Virus record (IMG/VR): IMGVR_UViG_3300020401_001152
Location: 1-22,723 of that record
Direction: 5' to 3' (one strand)
Source: a virus
DNA: 22,723 nucleotides
The notes beneath the pieces are model-generated. The model saw only the letters and a program-made list of their open reading frames with translations, did not search any database and was not told the origin of the DNA. Shown here one piece after another: positions 8,001-22,723 of this stretch (positions are counted from its first letter, which is position 1; the number at the start of each line of letters is the position of its first letter). The position numbers and the translations under genes were made by a program.

Positions 8001-8432
8001 ATGGATACTTCATCATTAGGTGCTGGGCCTAAGCTCAAACCTACTATGAAGGGCAAGTTGCGTCCTATCAAAGATCGTGTTCTAGCTTATGGCATGAACT
8101 TTGGTGAAAGAACTACTAAAGGTGGAATTATTATTACATCTGATGACGGACTAGAAAGAGGCATTCGCTCACGTTGGTGTAAAGTGTATGCAAAAGGTCC
8201 AAACAACAAAGACGAGTATGAAGTAGGTGATTGGATCTACGTAGAACATGGTCGTTGGAGTAGAGGGATAAAACTTGATGAGCCAGACTTAGGTGATATA
8301 GAAGTAAGGCTTATAGACAATAAAGATATTTTGCTTTATAGCAAAGAGATGCCAGACGATGACGGTATCGGACACACAACAGACTTATCTCAACCATCAA
8401 TCGATCCTAGCAGTTTTGTTAAGGAAGAATAG
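8001..8432 (+). CDS. GroES-like co-chaperonin
   Basis: A 143-residue protein. Residues about 20-117 follow the GroES fold order. KLRPIKDRVLAY matches the first strand (IRPLHDRVxV). ERTTKGGIIITSDDG covers the mobile-loop region with the GGI motif that contacts GroEL. EVGDWIYVEHGRW matches the VKVGDxVxF strand, and VRLIDNKDILLY the closing VLIMSESDILAIV. It is longer than cellular GroES (about 97 residues): there is a short N-terminal leader and an acidic C-terminal tail after about residue 118. T4 uses gp31 for the same role, folding the major capsid protein with host GroEL; this protein looks closer to GroES than to gp31. AGGAAT precedes the ATG 5 nt after the previous stop, so it shares the late promoter at 7535. 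Confidence 0.8.
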   Translation: MDTSSLGAGPKLKPTMKGKLRPIKDRVLAYGMNFGERTTKGGIIITSDDGLERGIRSRWCKVYAKGPNNKDEYEVGDWIYVEHGRWSRGIKLDEPDLGDIEVRLIDNKDILLYSKEMPDDDGIGHTTDLSQPSIDPSSFVKEE

Positions 8433-15979: not shown

Positions 15980-16498
15980 ATGCACGATGTAATGGACATA
16001 GTTAAAAACGTAGAAGGTATATATGAAAGCGATACTGCTTTTAGTATACTAAAAGACTTCGAACGTGTTTTAGATGAATTAGATCTATATGTATATGAAA
16101 ACTGGGAAGATGGCGAATTAGTGTCAGGCCCTAATATAGAACGTCATTGGGTATCATGTGAATTTATGTGGCCTAAAGATAAGATGCCAGATCCAATGGG
16201 TGGCAAAAGACTATTAGATTACGACTGTAAAGTTGCATACAAAAAGACTTCAGTAATTAAACCACGTAAAATACGTAAACCAGACGATATTAGACCAGGT
16301 TCTAAAAAAGGTAAGCTAGACAGACATCCTGTTTGGACAGTTGAAATTACAATGCCTAAGGATTTAATACTCAACATATACAGCGGTTACAAAGAACAAA
16401 CAGACTTTGTAAAAGAACCAGCAGTAGCATCAACACAACCAGCAGTAGATGATGTTCCACAAGATGCAGAAGTAAGTGCAGAAGGCGGAGCAGTTTAA
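15980..16498 (+). CDS. Conserved phage protein, probable virion component
   Basis: A 172-residue protein. MDIVKNVEGIY, SILKDFERVLDELDLYVYEN (residues about 23-42), HWVSCEFMWP, DPMGGKRLLDYDCKVAYKK and HPVWTVEITMPKDLI look like a conserved block I associate with T4-like marine phages, though I do not know its role. The tail (about 145-172) is disordered and rich in Ala, Val and Pro (VKEPAVASTQPAVDD). It has no membrane segment, signal or catalytic motif. It leads the late unit, and its stop overlaps the next ATG (TAATG), which implies coupled translation and possibly a stoichiometric pair. A baseplate or tail role is inferred from the late promoter and its neighbour only. Confidence 0.6.
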   Translation: MHDVMDIVKNVEGIYESDTAFSILKDFERVLDELDLYVYENWEDGELVSGPNIERHWVSCEFMWPKDKMPDPMGGKRLLDYDCKVAYKKTSVIKPRKIRKPDDIRPGSKKGKLDRHPVWTVEITMPKDLILNIYSGYKEQTDFVKEPAVASTQPAVDDVPQDAEVSAEGGAV

Positions 16499-17211
16499 TG
16501 GGATTACAAACAGGCGATCTTAAAGAATTAGTTTACGATGTCTTTGAAGTTGATTCATTTAAATCAAAAATGGGTGACGATAAGAACATAGTTGTAATGA
16601 GCTTTTCAGCAAGAACAAGAGAATCAGCAAACGACTTGATGAACTTTATAGAAAAAGGTTATCCTTTTGTTTTAGATGCTGATGTAACATCAGGCGAACA
16701 ACCAGATGGTACATACAAAGTATTTGTTGAGATGGAAAGATGTAAAGAATGTCCAGAGCAGATAGTAGAAGTTGTAGACGGTGTTCAAAAACTAGCTGAT
16801 CTAGATAAAATGCGTTTTAGATATTACAAGAGTTTCAAAAGCAATGATGTAAGTGTTGAATCAGTATCAAATACTGTACCATTAGACAACGATGCTTATG
16901 ATATAAAAGTAAATGAAAATAACATGGAAAATTACAAGAACTTTTTTAACAAAAGCTACTTAGACAGTATTGAAATGTTACAGGACAACATTACATTTAA
17001 GAAAAAATACAGTGGTGATTTAAAATTAGAAGTTGTTGATTTTGGTAAAACTGAAGATATAAACAAGTCAGTTACAGAGTCTTACAATATCAATTCTTGG
17101 GCGGAAACAATTTACCTTACTAAATACTTAGGCGACTATGATATTGAAAAGTATGGAGATAAGATACTTATTTCCAATAATGGATACACAGCCGTAACTA
17201 AAAGGAATTAA
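16498..17211 (+). CDS. Conserved phage protein, probable virion component
   Basis: A 237-residue soluble protein that begins on the last base of the previous stop codon. GLQTGDLKELVYDVFEVDSF (residues 2-21), then KSKMGDDKNIVVMSFSA, YPFVLDADVTSGE, KVFVEMERCKECPEQI and RFRYYKSFKS look like a conserved block of marine T4-like phages. The C-terminal third (DIKVNENNMENYKNFFNKSY and DISN-type stretches) seems more variable and ends in a beta-like GYTAVTKRN. A CxxC pair (MERCKECPE, about residue 81-84) is visible. There is no membrane segment. I cannot name the fold. Translational coupling with the gene before it suggests the two products act together, most simply in the particle. Confidence 0.6.
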   Translation: MGLQTGDLKELVYDVFEVDSFKSKMGDDKNIVVMSFSARTRESANDLMNFIEKGYPFVLDADVTSGEQPDGTYKVFVEMERCKECPEQIVEVVDGVQKLADLDKMRFRYYKSFKSNDVSVESVSNTVPLDNDAYDIKVNENNMENYKNFFNKSYLDSIEMLQDNITFKKKYSGDLKLEVVDFGKTEDINKSVTESYNINSWAETIYLTKYLGDYDIEKYGDKILISNNGYTAVTKRN

Positions 17212-17212
17212 A

Positions 17213-17722
17213 ATGCAATCAAATTACGATAAATGCTTGGAGACTATTCTGCACCACGAAGGTGGATACGTTAATCACCCAAAAGATCCAGGCGGGGAAA
17301 CAAACCTAGGTGTTACAAAAAGAGTTTATGAAGAATGGGGCGGAACTAAAGACATGAAAGACTTAACAGTTGAAGATGTTGCTCCAATTTACAAAAAGAA
17401 TTATTGGGACAAGATGAAAGGCGATGACTTACCAGGTGGTTTAGACTTATGTGTATTCGACTTTGGTGTTAACGCAGGTCCAGGACGTTCAGCAAAATAT
17501 TTACAAACAATGATTGGTACAGTTGCTGACGGAGGAATAGGTCCTAATACATTAGCAAAGGTGGCTGAGTATGTTGATGCACACGGCATTGAGTCAACTA
17601 TTGAAAATTTCCAAGCTGAAAGACAAAAGTATTATGAGTCTTTAAGTACTTTCGACACTTTCGGAAGAGGTTGGACTAGAAGAGTAGACGAAACTACAGA
17701 ATTAGCCAAAACAATGATATGA
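17213..17722 (+). CDS. GH108-type endolysin (muramidase)
   Basis: A 169-residue endolysin. ILHHEGGYVNHPKDPGGETN, followed by LGVTKRVY, is the N-terminal signature of glycoside hydrolase family 108, with the catalytic Glu16 in HEGGY. KKNYWDKMKGDDLP and CVFDFGVNAGPGRSAKYLQ match the rest of that domain. GIGPNTLAKVAEY begins the small peptidoglycan-binding-type C-terminal part. It cleaves the glycan backbone of peptidoglycan. There is no signal peptide or anchor, so it needs a holin to reach the wall. AAGGAAT precedes the ATG, 1 nt after the previous stop. It starts the lysis cluster, in which the next gene overlaps it by 4 nt. Confidence 0.88.
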   Translation: MQSNYDKCLETILHHEGGYVNHPKDPGGETNLGVTKRVYEEWGGTKDMKDLTVEDVAPIYKKNYWDKMKGDDLPGGLDLCVFDFGVNAGPGRSAKYLQTMIGTVADGGIGPNTLAKVAEYVDAHGIESTIENFQAERQKYYESLSTFDTFGRGWTRRVDETTELAKTMI

Positions 17723-17859
17723 TCAAAGTCTGCCAAAATTGTGGTAGAGCTCACGAAGGCAGATTGATCGAAGAGTTTAAAGATGGAGACAACAAACCAA
17801 TAGAGATAGTGGTTTGCGAACATCCACGTTACGAGGAAGAAGATGGAAAAAGTAGTTAA
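17719..17859 (+). CDS. CxxC mini-protein, possible zinc ribbon
   Basis: A 46-residue protein. ATG 17719 overlaps the endolysin stop (ATGA), and the stop lies 14 nt inside the ACP-like gene. It has KVCQNCGRAHEG (Cys5, Cys8, His12) and VVCEHPRYEEE (Cys33, His35), which together could hold one zinc ion in a small ribbon-like fold. It is acidic at the end. No family is recognised. The reality of the gene rests on the exact overlaps and the Cys and His pattern. It lies between the endolysin and an ACP-like gene in a lysis cluster, so it may be a regulator or adaptor of either, but the sequence gives no direct clue. Confidence 0.6.
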   Translation: MIKVCQNCGRAHEGRLIEEFKDGDNKPIEIVVCEHPRYEEEDGKSS

Positions 17860-18067
17860 AGCAATAGCAGAACATTTAGACGTTGATCCGTCTAAGGTAG
17901 TACCAGAAGCATCATTAATAGATGACTTAGGTGCTGACGACTTTGATATCGTTGAGCTTACCATTGCGATTCAAGAAGCAACAGGTACAAGCATTTCGAG
18001 TGAAGAAGAAGCTAACGTAAAAACAGTTGGCGACTTTATTAAAATAGTGGAGAGTAAGAGTGTTTAG
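17843..18067 (+). CDS. Acyl-carrier-protein-like, phosphopantetheine Ser replaced by Asp
   Basis: A 74-residue protein with the ACP fold pattern. VVKAIAEHLDVDPSKVVPEA is helix 1 and the first loop, LIDDLGADDFDIVELTIAIQ is helix 2, and SSEEEANVKTVGDFIKIV is the last helices. In normal ACPs helix 2 starts with GADSLD, whose Ser carries 4'-phosphopantetheine. Here the codon at 17939-17941 is GAC, giving GADDFD (Asp33). All else around it is well kept (DLGAD, VEL, the VxTVxDFI end), so it is unlikely to be decayed. Without the Ser it cannot carry acyl groups by the known route. The Asp might mimic a phosphorylated state, or the protein may act as a partner decoy. It overlaps genes on both sides (17 nt and 8 nt). 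Confidence 0.8.
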   Translation: MEKVVKAIAEHLDVDPSKVVPEASLIDDLGADDFDIVELTIAIQEATGTSISSEEEANVKTVGDFIKIVESKSV

Positions 18068-18545
18068 TTCTATAAAAATTGCATTAATGTTAGTGGTGTT
18101 AGCAGGTGCTGGCGGAGGATTTATGTATGTAAAAAATCTAAAAGCGGACTTGGCTACATCAGAGGCTAACAATGCCAAGCTAGAGCAAAGTGTTGAAAGT
18201 CAGAAAGCTGTCATTAAACAGATGAAAGCAGACTTTGAAGCAATGACTAAAATAAAAGCTGAAATAGAAAAACAAAACAAAATTCTTAAAGCCGAATTTG
18301 AGGCTTTGGATAAAAAGTTCAATAAGATAAACGGAAAAGGCGAAGTACGTGATATTGGTGATCTCGCAACGAAGAGGCCTGAGTCCGTAGAGAAGATAAT
18401 TAATAAAGGAAGTACCAATGCAATGAGATGTAGTGAAATTGCAATGGGAAGTCCATTAACGGAGAAAGAGAAAAATGCAACTAAGAAGTCTGAAATCAAT
18501 TCTGAGTGTCCTAGTATTGCTAACCCTAACTACGTTCCTTACTAG
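18060..18545 (+). CDS. i-spanin (Rz-like)
   Basis: A 161-residue protein starting at GTG 18060, 8 nt inside the ACP-like gene, after GGAG. Residues about 5-24 form an N-terminal membrane anchor (IKIALMLVVLAGAGGGFMYV). A long periplasmic coiled coil follows (LKADLATSEANNAKLEQSVE to about residue 90), then a Cys-containing end (MRCSEIAMG, SECPSIANPNYVPY). This is the usual inner-membrane spanin layout: it would bridge to the lipoprotein o-spanin and fuse the inner and outer membranes after peptidoglycan breakdown. The o-spanin gene overlaps its last 71 bases in another frame, the classical Rz/Rz1-type arrangement. The assignment rests on architecture and order after the endolysin. Confidence 0.75.
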   Translation: MFSSIKIALMLVVLAGAGGGFMYVKNLKADLATSEANNAKLEQSVESQKAVIKQMKADFEAMTKIKAEIEKQNKILKAEFEALDKKFNKINGKGEVRDIGDLATKRPESVEKIINKGSTNAMRCSEIAMGSPLTEKEKNATKKSEINSECPSIANPNYVPY

Positions 18546-18867
18546 TTGCGGTACAGCAGTTAAGCAGTTAGAAATCTTCTCAGTAAAAGAAGAGAGACAA
18601 CCTCTTGAATTACCTGCACCGTTAACACCTAAACTAGAAGAACTTAAATGGACTATTATTACATCTGATAATGCTGACGAAGTGTTTGAAAAACTTAAAG
18701 CAGGTGGCGTTGATCCTGTGCTATTTGGCTTAACAGATGAAGGCTACGAAGCATTAGCTAAAAACTTCGCACAGATACGTGCTTATATGCTACAACAAGA
18801 CGAAATAATCAAGTCTTACAAAGAGTACTACGAAGGTACTGACAACAAACCCAACCCAAAAGACTAG
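18475..18867 (+). CDS. o-spanin-like lipoprotein (Rz1-like)
   Basis: A 130-residue protein. Its N-terminus is a lipoprotein signal peptide: basic start (MQLRSLK), hydrophobic core (LSVLVLLTLTTF) and lipobox LTSC with Cys25 as the lipidated residue. The mature part has a Pro-rich segment (LELPAPLTPKLEEL), then LKWTIITSDNADEVFEKL, FGLTDEGYEALAKNFAQI and RAYMLQQDEIIKSYKEYYE, which ends in a helix. It begins inside the i-spanin gene (71-nt overlap, different frame), as expected for an outer-membrane spanin. It is longer than most Rz1 proteins. ATG 18475 is preceded by GGAGAAAGAG. The cell envelope implied is Gram-negative. Confidence 0.75.
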   Translation: MQLRSLKSILSVLVLLTLTTFLTSCGTAVKQLEIFSVKEERQPLELPAPLTPKLEELKWTIITSDNADEVFEKLKAGGVDPVLFGLTDEGYEALAKNFAQIRAYMLQQDEIIKSYKEYYEGTDNKPNPKD

Positions 18868-19963: not shown

Positions 19964-20839
19964 ATGGACTATTACGACAGCCTAGGTGTCTCACGAAACG
20001 CCTCTAGTAAAGAAATAAAGAGTGCATACAAAAAACAAAGTATGCAACACCACCCTGATCGCACGGGTGGCGACGATACCAAATTCAAAGAAATAAACGA
20101 AGCATATCAAACATTATCTGATCCTGAAAAGAAACAGATGTATGATCAATTTGGTACTACTGATCCACAACAAATGCACAGAACACATCGAGGTCAACAG
20201 TTTCATTTTAACATGGGAGGCAATGGCTTTGAAGAAGTGTTTAGCACATTTTTTGGAGAAGGGTTTGGACAAGCTGATCCATTTACAAGACGCAGACAAA
20301 TGCGTAATACAGACATAACGATTGCCGCAGATATAACATTAGAAGATATTATTAATGGTAAAGAAGTAATAGCAACATATAGACTACCAAGTGGTAAGGA
20401 ACAAACAGTCAATATTACATTACCAAAAGGTGTACGTCCTGGAGATACTATACGTTACTCAGGAATGGGTGGTGACCAAGTTCCAAATATGCCAAGAGGT
20501 AATTTGTTTGTAAAAGTAAGAGTCAGAAGACATCCTGACTATGACGTAGACGGCATAAATTTATATATAGAAAGAAACGTAAGTGTATTCGATCTATTAC
20601 TAGGCACAAACATCAGAGTTAAAACATTACACGGCAAAGAGATTAGTGTAAGTGTTCCTCCAGGCTCCAATTCAGGTACAACTTTTAGTATAAGTGGACA
20701 AGGCTTACCAGACCAAAGAAGTGGTAGAACAGGTAACTTGTTTATGAAAGTTATTGGTATAACACCAAACATTACAAACGAACAAATTAGAGAAAGACTA
20801 GCGAAGATAAAAGATGAAATTGATATATCACCCAAATAG
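19964..20839 (+). CDS. DnaJ-like co-chaperone, class B type
   Basis: A 291-residue protein. The J domain is clear: YYDSLGVSRNASSKEIKSAY, the HPD tripeptide (His30-Pro31-Asp32) in QHHPDRTGG, and DPEKKQMYDQFG. A short Gly/Phe-rich linker (residues about 75-100) follows, including HFNMGGNGFEEVF and FFGEGFG. The zinc-finger domain of DnaJ is absent, so it is a CbpA/DjlA-like class B architecture with two beta-type C-terminal substrate domains (VRPGDTIRYSGMG, NLFVKVRVRRHPDY, FSISGQGLP, GRTGNLFMKV). It would stimulate host DnaK. No Shine-Dalgarno is seen before ATG 19964. Its end overlaps the deformylase by 26 nt. Confidence 0.88.
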   Translation: MDYYDSLGVSRNASSKEIKSAYKKQSMQHHPDRTGGDDTKFKEINEAYQTLSDPEKKQMYDQFGTTDPQQMHRTHRGQQFHFNMGGNGFEEVFSTFFGEGFGQADPFTRRRQMRNTDITIAADITLEDIINGKEVIATYRLPSGKEQTVNITLPKGVRPGDTIRYSGMGGDQVPNMPRGNLFVKVRVRRHPDYDVDGINLYIERNVSVFDLLLGTNIRVKTLHGKEISVSVPPGSNSGTTFSISGQGLPDQRSGRTGNLFMKVIGITPNITNEQIRERLAKIKDEIDISPK

Positions 20840-21353
20840 TTGGTTAGAAAGAAAAGTAGATCCTTTTGATTTTAACAATCTAAATGCCAAAGAGATTGAA
20901 GAACAAATGATTGAAATTATGGAAAAGAACCAAGGTGTTGGACTTGCGGCTAACCAAGTTGAACTCAATGCACAGATTTTTATTATAAAACCAAACGGGT
21001 TAGAAGGTTACGAAGATGATAAACCTTTTGCAATTATCAATCCTAAAATTACACAGGTGTCTGAAGAGATGGTTGAAGGTGAAGAAGGGTGTTTAAGTTT
21101 TCCATTACTTTACTTTAAGGTCAAAAGACCACTTGGATTGGTAACAGAGTGTCTTGACTCTAGCGGAAAAGAGTGTACAATAGAGTTAACAGGTTGGAAT
21201 GCTAGAATCTTTGGTCATGAATATGATCATCTATACGGAATCAACTACATAGATAGAGTAAGTAAATTGAGATTAGATATGGCTAAGAAGAAGCAGAACA
21301 AATTAATGAAACGAATATCGAGACAAGTTAAGGATACTAAATTATATGGTTGA
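20814..21353 (+). CDS. def: Peptide deformylase
   Basis: A 179-residue deformylase with all three motifs: GVGLAANQ (41-48, motif 1 GxGLAAxQ), EGCLS (91-95, the metal Cys93) and HEYDH (135-139, the HExxH metal His pair). It removes the formyl group from nascent protein N-termini with Fe or Zn. Phage deformylases are known from cyanophages and other marine T4-like phages and may help mature phage or host proteins. The C-terminal basic tail (MAKKKQNKLMKRISRQ) is longer than in many short phage versions and could contact ribosomes. It starts inside dnaJ (26-nt overlap) and ends 8 nt inside the Clp-like gene. Confidence 0.92.
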   Translation: MKLIYHPNSWLERKVDPFDFNNLNAKEIEEQMIEIMEKNQGVGLAANQVELNAQIFIIKPNGLEGYEDDKPFAIINPKITQVSEEMVEGEEGCLSFPLLYFKVKRPLGLVTECLDSSGKECTIELTGWNARIFGHEYDHLYGINYIDRVSKLRLDMAKKKQNKLMKRISRQVKDTKLYG

Positions 21354-22722
21354 ACCGAGCGAACAGTTACAGTTAGTTTTTGATAAAGCAGTAGAAGTTG
21401 CAAAGAAATTACATCACGAGTATGTAACTATTGAACACTTATTATTTGCGATGTTATGCGAAGATAGTTTTGCTAAAATTATAGAAGGCTACGGAGCAGA
21501 CCCAGAGTTCCTTAAGAAGAACGTAGAAAATTATTTAAAAACACAAACAGAAACTATTCAATTAGACAAAGCACAAGCTAAAAAGTATAAGCCTAAGAAG
21601 ACACACGCAGTTGAAAGAGTGTTGAATAGAGCATTTACGCAAGTATTGTTTAGTGGACGTAATCATATTGATTGTTCAGATGTATTTTTAAGCATCATGA
21701 ATGAAAAGAAAAGCTGGTCATACTATCATATAAGCAAATGCAATATTGATAAAGATAAATTTGCTGATTACTTGAGCAACGAAGTACTAGAAAGCTACGA
21801 AGATGAAGAAATGCAAGGTATGGCTACTAGAGCTTTACGTTCATTTACAAGTAATCTAAATTCAGAAGTAGACAAAGGTAAGATTGATCCTGTTATAGGA
21901 CGTATAGACGAATTAGATTCTATTGCACTCGCTTTAGGTAGACGTGCAAAGAATAACGTTTTGCTAGTGGGTGATCCAGGTGTAGGTAAAACAGCTATTG
22001 CTGAAGGCCTTGCCTGGAACATCGTCAATAAAACAGTTCCAGAATTTTTATTAGAGTATAGTGTTTACAACTTAGACATAGGAAGTATGTTAGCAGGTTC
22101 TAAATACAGAGGTGACTTTGAAGAACGTTTTAAACTTGTTATGTCAGCACTAAAGAAACGTGGTAAAACTATTGTATTCATAGATGAAGCACATATGATG
22201 AATGGTGCTGGTGCAGGTGGCGGACAAAGTTCTAATGATTTAGCTAATATGTTAAAGCCTGTACTAACAAAAGGTAATATTAAAGTAGTAGCAAGTACAA
22301 CTTGGGAAGAATATAGAAAATACTTTGAAAAAGACCGTGCATTAATGCGTAGGTTTGCAAGAGTAACTGTTGACGAGCCAAGTAAAGAAGTAACTAAAGA
22401 TATCTTAGAAGGTATCAAGAAGTATTATGAGGAGTTTCATAATACAGTTATTACAGAACAAGCTATTGATAGTGCAATTAAATTGAGTGTTAAGTATCAA
22501 GCAGATAAGAAACTGCCAGATAAAGCAATTGATTTGATTGATTGTGCTTGTAGTAGATTTAATTTAAAAGATCCTAAGGCAGAAAAGATAATTGGTGAAG
22601 AAGAAGTTCAGTTTGAACTTGCAAAAGCAGTAAACTTACCTGAAGAGCAAGTTAAAGAAAAAGAAACTAACAATCTAGCTAAACTTGAAAAGAATCTTAA
22701 AGGCGAAATATACGGACAAGAC
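21346..22722 (+). CDS. clpA: ClpA-like AAA+ chaperone, 3'-truncated by the window
   Basis: 459 codons are visible and no stop is reached by the window end. ATG 21346 overlaps the deformylase stop by 8 nt. Residues about 5-150 form a ClpN-type repeat domain (LQLVFDKAVEVAKKLHHEYV, TIEHLLFAMLCED, VLNRAFTQVLFSG). The first AAA domain has GDPGVGKT (209-216, Walker A), GSKYRGDFEERF (about 251-262, pore loop), TIVFIDEAHMM (about 275-285, Walker B) and LMRRFARV (Arg finger region). LPDKAIDLIDCACSRF leads to the start of the second AAA domain (GEIYGQD). It unfolds proteins for a protease or reactivates them. No ClpP is in view, and whether the ClpP-binding loop exists cannot be seen here. Confidence 0.88.
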   Translation, partial: MVEPSEQLQLVFDKAVEVAKKLHHEYVTIEHLLFAMLCEDSFAKIIEGYGADPEFLKKNVENYLKTQTETIQLDKAQAKKYKPKKTHAVERVLNRAFTQVLFSGRNHIDCSDVFLSIMNEKKSWSYYHISKCNIDKDKFADYLSNEVLESYEDEEMQGMATRALRSFTSNLNSEVDKGKIDPVIGRIDELDSIALALGRRAKNNVLLVGDPGVGKTAIAEGLAWNIVNKTVPEFLLEYSVYNLDIGSMLAGSKYRGDFEERFKLVMSALKKRGKTIVFIDEAHMMNGAGAGGGQSSNDLANMLKPVLTKGNIKVVASTTWEEYRKYFEKDRALMRRFARVTVDEPSKEVTKDILEGIKKYYEEFHNTVITEQAIDSAIKLSVKYQADKKLPDKAIDLIDCACSRFNLKDPKAEKIIGEEEVQFELAKAVNLPEEQVKEKETNNLAKLEKNLKGEIYGQD

Positions 22723-22723
22723 A

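Follow-up and report, generated by a model that had tools for sequence, protein, structure and literature searches.

The DNA stretch analyzed here (the window; 22,723 nucleotides of the viral record IMGVR_UViG_3300020401_001152) encodes, at positions 17843–18067 of the forward strand, a 74-aa protein having the ACP fold without the phosphopantetheine serine, as indicated by the open reading frame, profile search, structure model, and Foldseek comparison. By fold this protein is a member of the ACP superfamily, yet at the defining serine it does not qualify as a carrier protein. Sequence comparisons with its relatives from marine phages showed purifying selection on the ACP fold and on the docking face, acidic and hydrophobic, that helix II provides, while nearly all of this family has lost the serine. 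The best overall explanation, which we advance tentatively, is that the gene encodes a phage ACP-like docking protein without cargo, a candidate decoy for host enzymes.

The acp-like gene starts with ATG and consists of 74 codons ending at a TAG stop. The product scored 33.9 bits against the PF00550 (PP-binding) profile (cut-off 20.8, E-value 3.9e-8), and all 28 related records were above this cut-off. The nearest PHROG was the phage ACP family phrog_5934 (E-value 3.8e-10), and the best sequence match in PDB was the Aquifex ACP 2ehs. With 59.4 bits, the product was under the 70.45 cut-off of TIGR00517, the equivalog of ACPs of fatty acid synthesis, and it was also under the cut-off of PRK00982. 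The AlphaFold2 model, built from an alignment of 35 sequences, represents a four-helix ACP with a pLDDT of 89.8 and predicted helices at residues 2–12, 33–47, 53–57, and 62–72, so that helix II begins at residue 33. In Foldseek the model matched the holo-ACP 4zjb_G with TM 0.92 and rmsd 0.9, and holo- and apo-ACPs were found at TM of about 0.9. The usual ACP motif, DLGADSLDxVEL, is replaced by DLGADDFDIVEL, in which codon 33 (GAC, 17939–17941, forward strand) encodes Asp instead of the universal serine; in the model, helix II opens with this residue. The recognition face of helix II (17936–17956, forward strand) is composed of D32, F34, D35, and E38, corresponding to D35, L37, D38, and E41 of E. 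coli. Therefore, the profile, the four-helix fold, and the D35/D38/E41 equivalents of an ACP were found, while the modifiable serine and a TIGR00517-level score were missing. Relative to canonical ACPs, F34 stands in the docking face in place of Leu throughout the family, and in the window clade Q44 takes the place of Glu. The ORF, PF00550, PHROG, and the model all agree with the original prediction of an ACP frame with Asp at the serine codon.

The window is a piece of a T4-like marine myophage encoding a clamp loader, baseplate-related proteins, PhoH, ThyX, DnaJ, and peptide deformylase. The acp-like gene is located in a forward-strand lysis cassette comprising a GH108 endolysin (Glyco_hydro_108, PF05838, E-value 5.6e-31; 17213–17722), a 46-aa CxxC ORF (17719–17859), the acp-like gene itself, an Rz-like i-spanin with a GTG start (phrog_739; 18060–18545), and an Rz1-like o-spanin lipoprotein overlapping Rz (phrog_812; 18475–18867). 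This order is conserved in the window clade. Two virion structural genes (phrog_12928 and phrog_13138; 15980–17211, forward strand) precede the endolysin in the same gene run and are conserved neighbours of the acp-Rz pair. The 46-aa ORF (MIKVCQNCGRAHEGRLIEEF...VVCEHPRY), which contains CxxC and a further Cys and is possibly a zinc ribbon, overlaps the end of the endolysin gene and the first 17 nt of acp; its place and sequence are kept clade-wide (54%–96%). The stop of acp in turn overlaps Rz by 8 nt, and the gene is thus enclosed by two overlapping genes of a lysis cluster, as originally described. In 35 contigs acp lies immediately upstream of Rz with ends overlapping by 1–26 nt, and these stop/start overlaps suggest coupled translation. 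In the isolate closest by its Rz protein, Pelagibacter phage HTVC008M (52% identity), no acp adjoins the Rz gene. A similar Cys-rich ORF of 54 aa was observed in another record (L132, 5435–5599), 2.4 kb downstream of acp. The window also contains genes of protein folding and quality control, namely a weak Cpn10 (GroES) match (8001–8432), DnaJ (19964–20839), peptide deformylase (20814–21353), and a ClpA-like ATPase (GDPGVGKTAIAEG; about 21345–22723), the last assigned by reading the sequence and running past the window end.

Alignment of relatives at the serine position, a safeguard against sequencing error, revealed D or E and no other residue in 27 further viral contigs of the window clade (72%–96% protein identity). 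Since the acidic residue is encoded there by all four codons, GAC, GAT, GAA, and GAG, a sequencing error or frameshift is ruled out. The wider marine-phage family was defined as proteins from viral contig scans with at least 54% identity to three seeds; one of the scans used search patterns not touching the serine region. It comprised 40 distinct proteins, 36 of them without Ser, and site 33 was occupied by E (11), D (10), P (9), S (4), V (3), N (1), I (1), and A (1), counts that do not represent frequencies in nature, as some scan patterns favoured D/E and one S/D. The predicted Asp substitution is real, but Asp is only one of several residues at this site, and other members of the family have Glu, Pro, Val, Asn, Ile, Ala, or, in some cases, Ser. 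ACP-like proteins outside the family had Ser in 90 of 101 cases compared. A further viral ACP-like protein, unrelated to the marine family, has Phe at this site (L093, 4001–4216; DLGADFLE). Ser was kept in all 17 annotated-phage ACPs examined, and no isolated-phage homologue carrying the substitution was found in the phage collection. Among the matches listed in the bacterial genome scan were Ser ACPs of Rhodobacteraceae and of one Oscillospiraceae MAG, as well as four stray Glu versions (L199, L200, L202, and L203) originating from Streptomyces, an actinomycete MAG, a gammaproteobacterial MAG, and a Ruthturnera MAG, the Ruthturnera copy having a gap in helix II. Some short unannotated records named as "Listeria", "Staphylococcus", or "Enterococcus phage" (including OR846852, OR846814, OR849347, and PQ520329) also matched the ACP query and may be host contamination. 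The Ser-less family is a variant new to an otherwise known fold family: in the literature on Ser-less, pseudo-, or phage-encoded ACPs, searched with most subscription journals outside coverage, the substitution was not found described.

The ACP serine is required for 4'-phosphopantetheine and is the residue defining carrier proteins. The usual phosphopantetheinyl transferases are not known to accept D, E, P, V, I, A, or N in its place; therefore, we infer from the sequences that the carrier role is dispensable in the marine-phage family. The known transferase route is indeed closed to the window protein, as had been proposed, because the modifiable serine is absent. The IMG/VR records, which are fragments, carried one ACP each and no second ACP. 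The PPTase domain PF01648 was absent from the window and from 27 other IMG/VR records (fragments of up to 204 kb) and present in cyanophage MED4-213, which has a Ser ACP.

The gene itself is maintained. The omega value was about 0.29 for the acp of the window clade and ranged from 0.18 to 0.29 for the gene, and pairwise values against the window acp were mostly 0.1–0.3, with one group at 0.62. This purifying selection bears out the earlier view that the gene is kept as functional, and a degenerate pseudogene is ruled out by omega of 0.18–0.29 together with the conserved overlaps. Residues D32, F34, D35, and E38 are invariant across both the window clade and the sister clade. Among the 23 proteins of the latter, no column varies more than site 33 (2.52 bits), where canonical ACPs have an invariant serine; parsimony counts 10 changes there against 6 in the next highest column. 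Codon parsimony gave 13 nonsynonymous and 3 synonymous changes at this site and zero nonsynonymous changes at sites 32, 34, 35, and 38; the ratio of dN at site 33 to mean dS was 1.21. Site 33 of the sister clade thus behaves as unconstrained, about neutral, within a frozen motif. The recurrence of D, E, P, and S, all usual at helix starts, can be explained by the position of site 33 at the beginning of helix II, which leaves V and I unexplained.

The window clade differs in that codon 33 underwent about 6 nonsynonymous changes, all of them between D and E. If any residue were acceptable, the chance of this pattern would be about 4e-4 to 1e-5 (uniform to transition-rich mutation), and an acid is therefore selected at site 33 in this clade. 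Where acp directly precedes Rz, D or E was found in 35 of 35 contigs, against 7 D/E and 25 other residues in the 32 contigs with acp elsewhere; the contigs are not independent events, and the link amounts to one independent pair on the tree. A second, distant clade (L162, L254, L256, L258, L259, L261, and L264) also has only D/E, and there too acp lies immediately ahead of Rz. Joining the two acidic clades linked to Rz into one, as expected from a single origin of the Rz-linked form, was not rejected (p-AU 0.095). Next to Rz, site 33 is additionally held acidic, and this acid could be a helix-start or salt-bridge residue as well as a mimic of the holo form.

Retention of the fold and docking face without the serine is why we read these proteins as docking proteins lacking a prosthetic group, and protein binding is, on the sequence evidence, the most likely function of the family members, although Ser is still present in some of them. 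The acp product would be neither primed nor acylated and would work by binding via the D32/F34/D35/E38 face. It is probably made late in infection, alongside virion and lysis proteins. As a permanently apo ACP, it could compete for the sites at which ACP docks on host enzymes of lipid synthesis (acyltransferases, AcpS), and such competition would hold back envelope lipid synthesis while lysis is prepared. An acid at site 33 would extend the acidic patch and start helix II well. We consider such action as a host-enzyme decoy possible rather than probable. In ACP, the D35/D38 pair contacts an Arg of AcpS (PMC3447402) and Arg112/Arg116 of IscS (PMC13343975). According to one report (PMC3896788, citing Keating 1995), E. 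coli apo-ACP stops growth and inhibits glycerol-3-phosphate acyltransferase more than holo-ACP does, and replacement of the ACP active site is toxic (PMC10607373). Apo-ACP is not bound by SpoT (PMC3896788), and the S36T change in E. coli ACP abolishes binding to IscS, the stimulation of which requires the acyl chain (PMC13343975), which speaks against SpoT and IscS as partners. Overall, these published facts point to a target for which apo-ACP is acceptable or even preferred. Decoy binding of ACP partners, suggested in the original prediction, fits the acyltransferase inhibition, while the known route makes SpoT, named there among the partners, an improbable target. The F34 and Q44 changes count against the decoy, since they set the docking face apart from that of a host ACP. 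The more far-reaching scenario, in which marine phages turned a fatty-acid carrier into an apo inhibitor acting on host lipid enzymes, with the acid selected wherever the gene is spanin-coupled, seems somewhat unlikely.

The partner could instead belong to the phage, and a role in assembly or lysis is nearly as likely as that of a host-enzyme decoy. The armless ACP fold would then be a putative adaptor or assembly factor that serves virion or lysis proteins as a small acidic subunit or as a chaperone, comparable to mitochondrial ACP in its structural role with LYR proteins, which we regard as a rather doubtful but serious option. Most acp settings are late-gene runs. Apart from the endolysin/Rz/Rz1 cassette, the gene is found flanked, with its ends overlapping, by a gene for a virion structural protein and one for a T4 gp15-like tail sheath stabiliser (L024 group), directly after putative tail-tube genes assigned by reading (L214), and downstream of Rz1 (L067 group); the Ser members L064 and L132 have neighbours of no clear role. 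Expression in late-gene runs would fit virion assembly or lysis as well as inhibition of a host enzyme, and the overlapping stop/start and the surface residues, nearly invariant without the serine, are also consistent with an adaptor. Against an adaptor, no single phage neighbour is common to all contexts.

It is improbable that Asp/Glu mimics the charge of phosphopantetheine-Ser or phospho-Ser, the protein posing as holo-ACP. The occurrence of only D/E in the window clade and in the second Rz-linked clade, with frequent exchange between D and E and no other changes, is what such mimicry would leave. However, close sisters with the same invariant neighbours hold P, V, I, A, or N, and hence imitation of a charged or phosphorylated holo form, offered in the original prediction, is not the general reason for the substitution. 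Moreover, a carboxylate is unlike the arm and thiol recognised by partners, and D, E, P, and S are ordinary at the helix start occupied by residue 33.

Even less probable is an Fe-S assembly helper acting on host or phage IscS/IscU via the D35/D38 face, as E. coli and mitochondrial ACP do. Three phage records have IscU-like scaffold genes a few kb or less away from acp, with IscU/IscS-like loci in L012 (6386–6769, minus strand), L256 (5058–5486 and 6514–6882), and L264 (5008–6671), the last including an IscS-like cysteine desulfurase, and the reported contacts of D35/D38 with IscS (PMC13343975) are in line with this role. But only 3 of 40 records have such genes, and Fe-S genes are thereby rejected as a constant partner of acp; the loss of IscS binding by S36T and the need for an acyl chain (PMC13343975) are also unfavourable. 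The gene is very unlikely to be a decaying relic of an acquired ACP that lost its carrier function: the serine site is about neutral in the sister clade and some phages of the group, such as HTVC008M with its Rz, have no adjoining acp, but omega of 0.18–0.29, invariant D32/F34/D35/E38, intact frames, and overlaps conserved in dozens of contigs contradict decay. ACP has a known divalent-cation site, and equally remote is a putative metal-binding or purely structural acidic protein without a protein partner, in which the DD(E)xD cluster of the window clade (D32, D/E33, D35, and E38) enlarges this site, as P, V, I, and A of the sisters break the extended cluster.

With site 33 released, even hypervariable, between frozen docking residues, docking and carrying become separable roles of the ACP fold. 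The idea of ACP as a pure protein-binding module becomes testable on one small protein that occurs naturally with S, D, E, P, V, N, I, or A at this site. Annotation of phage ACP-like genes as fatty acid metabolism from a Pfam match alone is unsafe, because family members pass the PF00550 cut-off although the known route leaves them no means of acting as carriers. If the decoy is true, phages would have a previously undescribed means of interfering with the lipid synthesis of their hosts.

The window protein resembles bacterial type II AcpP (PF00550; TIGR00517) in fold (TM 0.92), DLGAD motif, Asp35/Asp38/Glu41 equivalents, size, and acidity, but it has no equivalent of Ser36 and thus no 4'-phosphopantetheine, has F instead of L37, and is encoded among phage late genes rather than fatty acid genes. 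The ACP of cyanophages P-HM1, P-HM2, and MED4-213 (T4-GC457) likewise has the ACP fold and is encoded by T4-like marine myophages near structural genes, but, unlike the window protein, it keeps Ser (DADSLD). In P-HM1 and P-HM2 the Ser ACP is accompanied by the ACP synthase/PPTase T4-GC500 (PMC3037559). An Sfp-like PPTase (PF01648, E-value 1.8e-9) and a Ser-type ACP were also observed in MED4-213, both annotated as "hypothetical protein"; the loci of this pair are L205 1058–1516 (CPMG_00044, minus strand) and L029 2342–2809 (CPMG_00087). The phage ACPs of PHROG 5934 and prophage acpP (PMC8224337) are also phage-encoded and ACP-like, but the annotated-phage examples examined keep Ser. E. coli apo-ACP and active-site variants are armless as well, although this is an experimental or overexpressed state and not a natural viral gene (PMC3896788, PMC10607373). 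Mitochondrial ACP in complexes with LYR proteins and NFS1-ISD11 similarly employs the ACP fold as a protein-binding subunit (PMC4381221, PMC13343975), but there, unlike in the window protein, Ser and the acylated arm normally join in binding.
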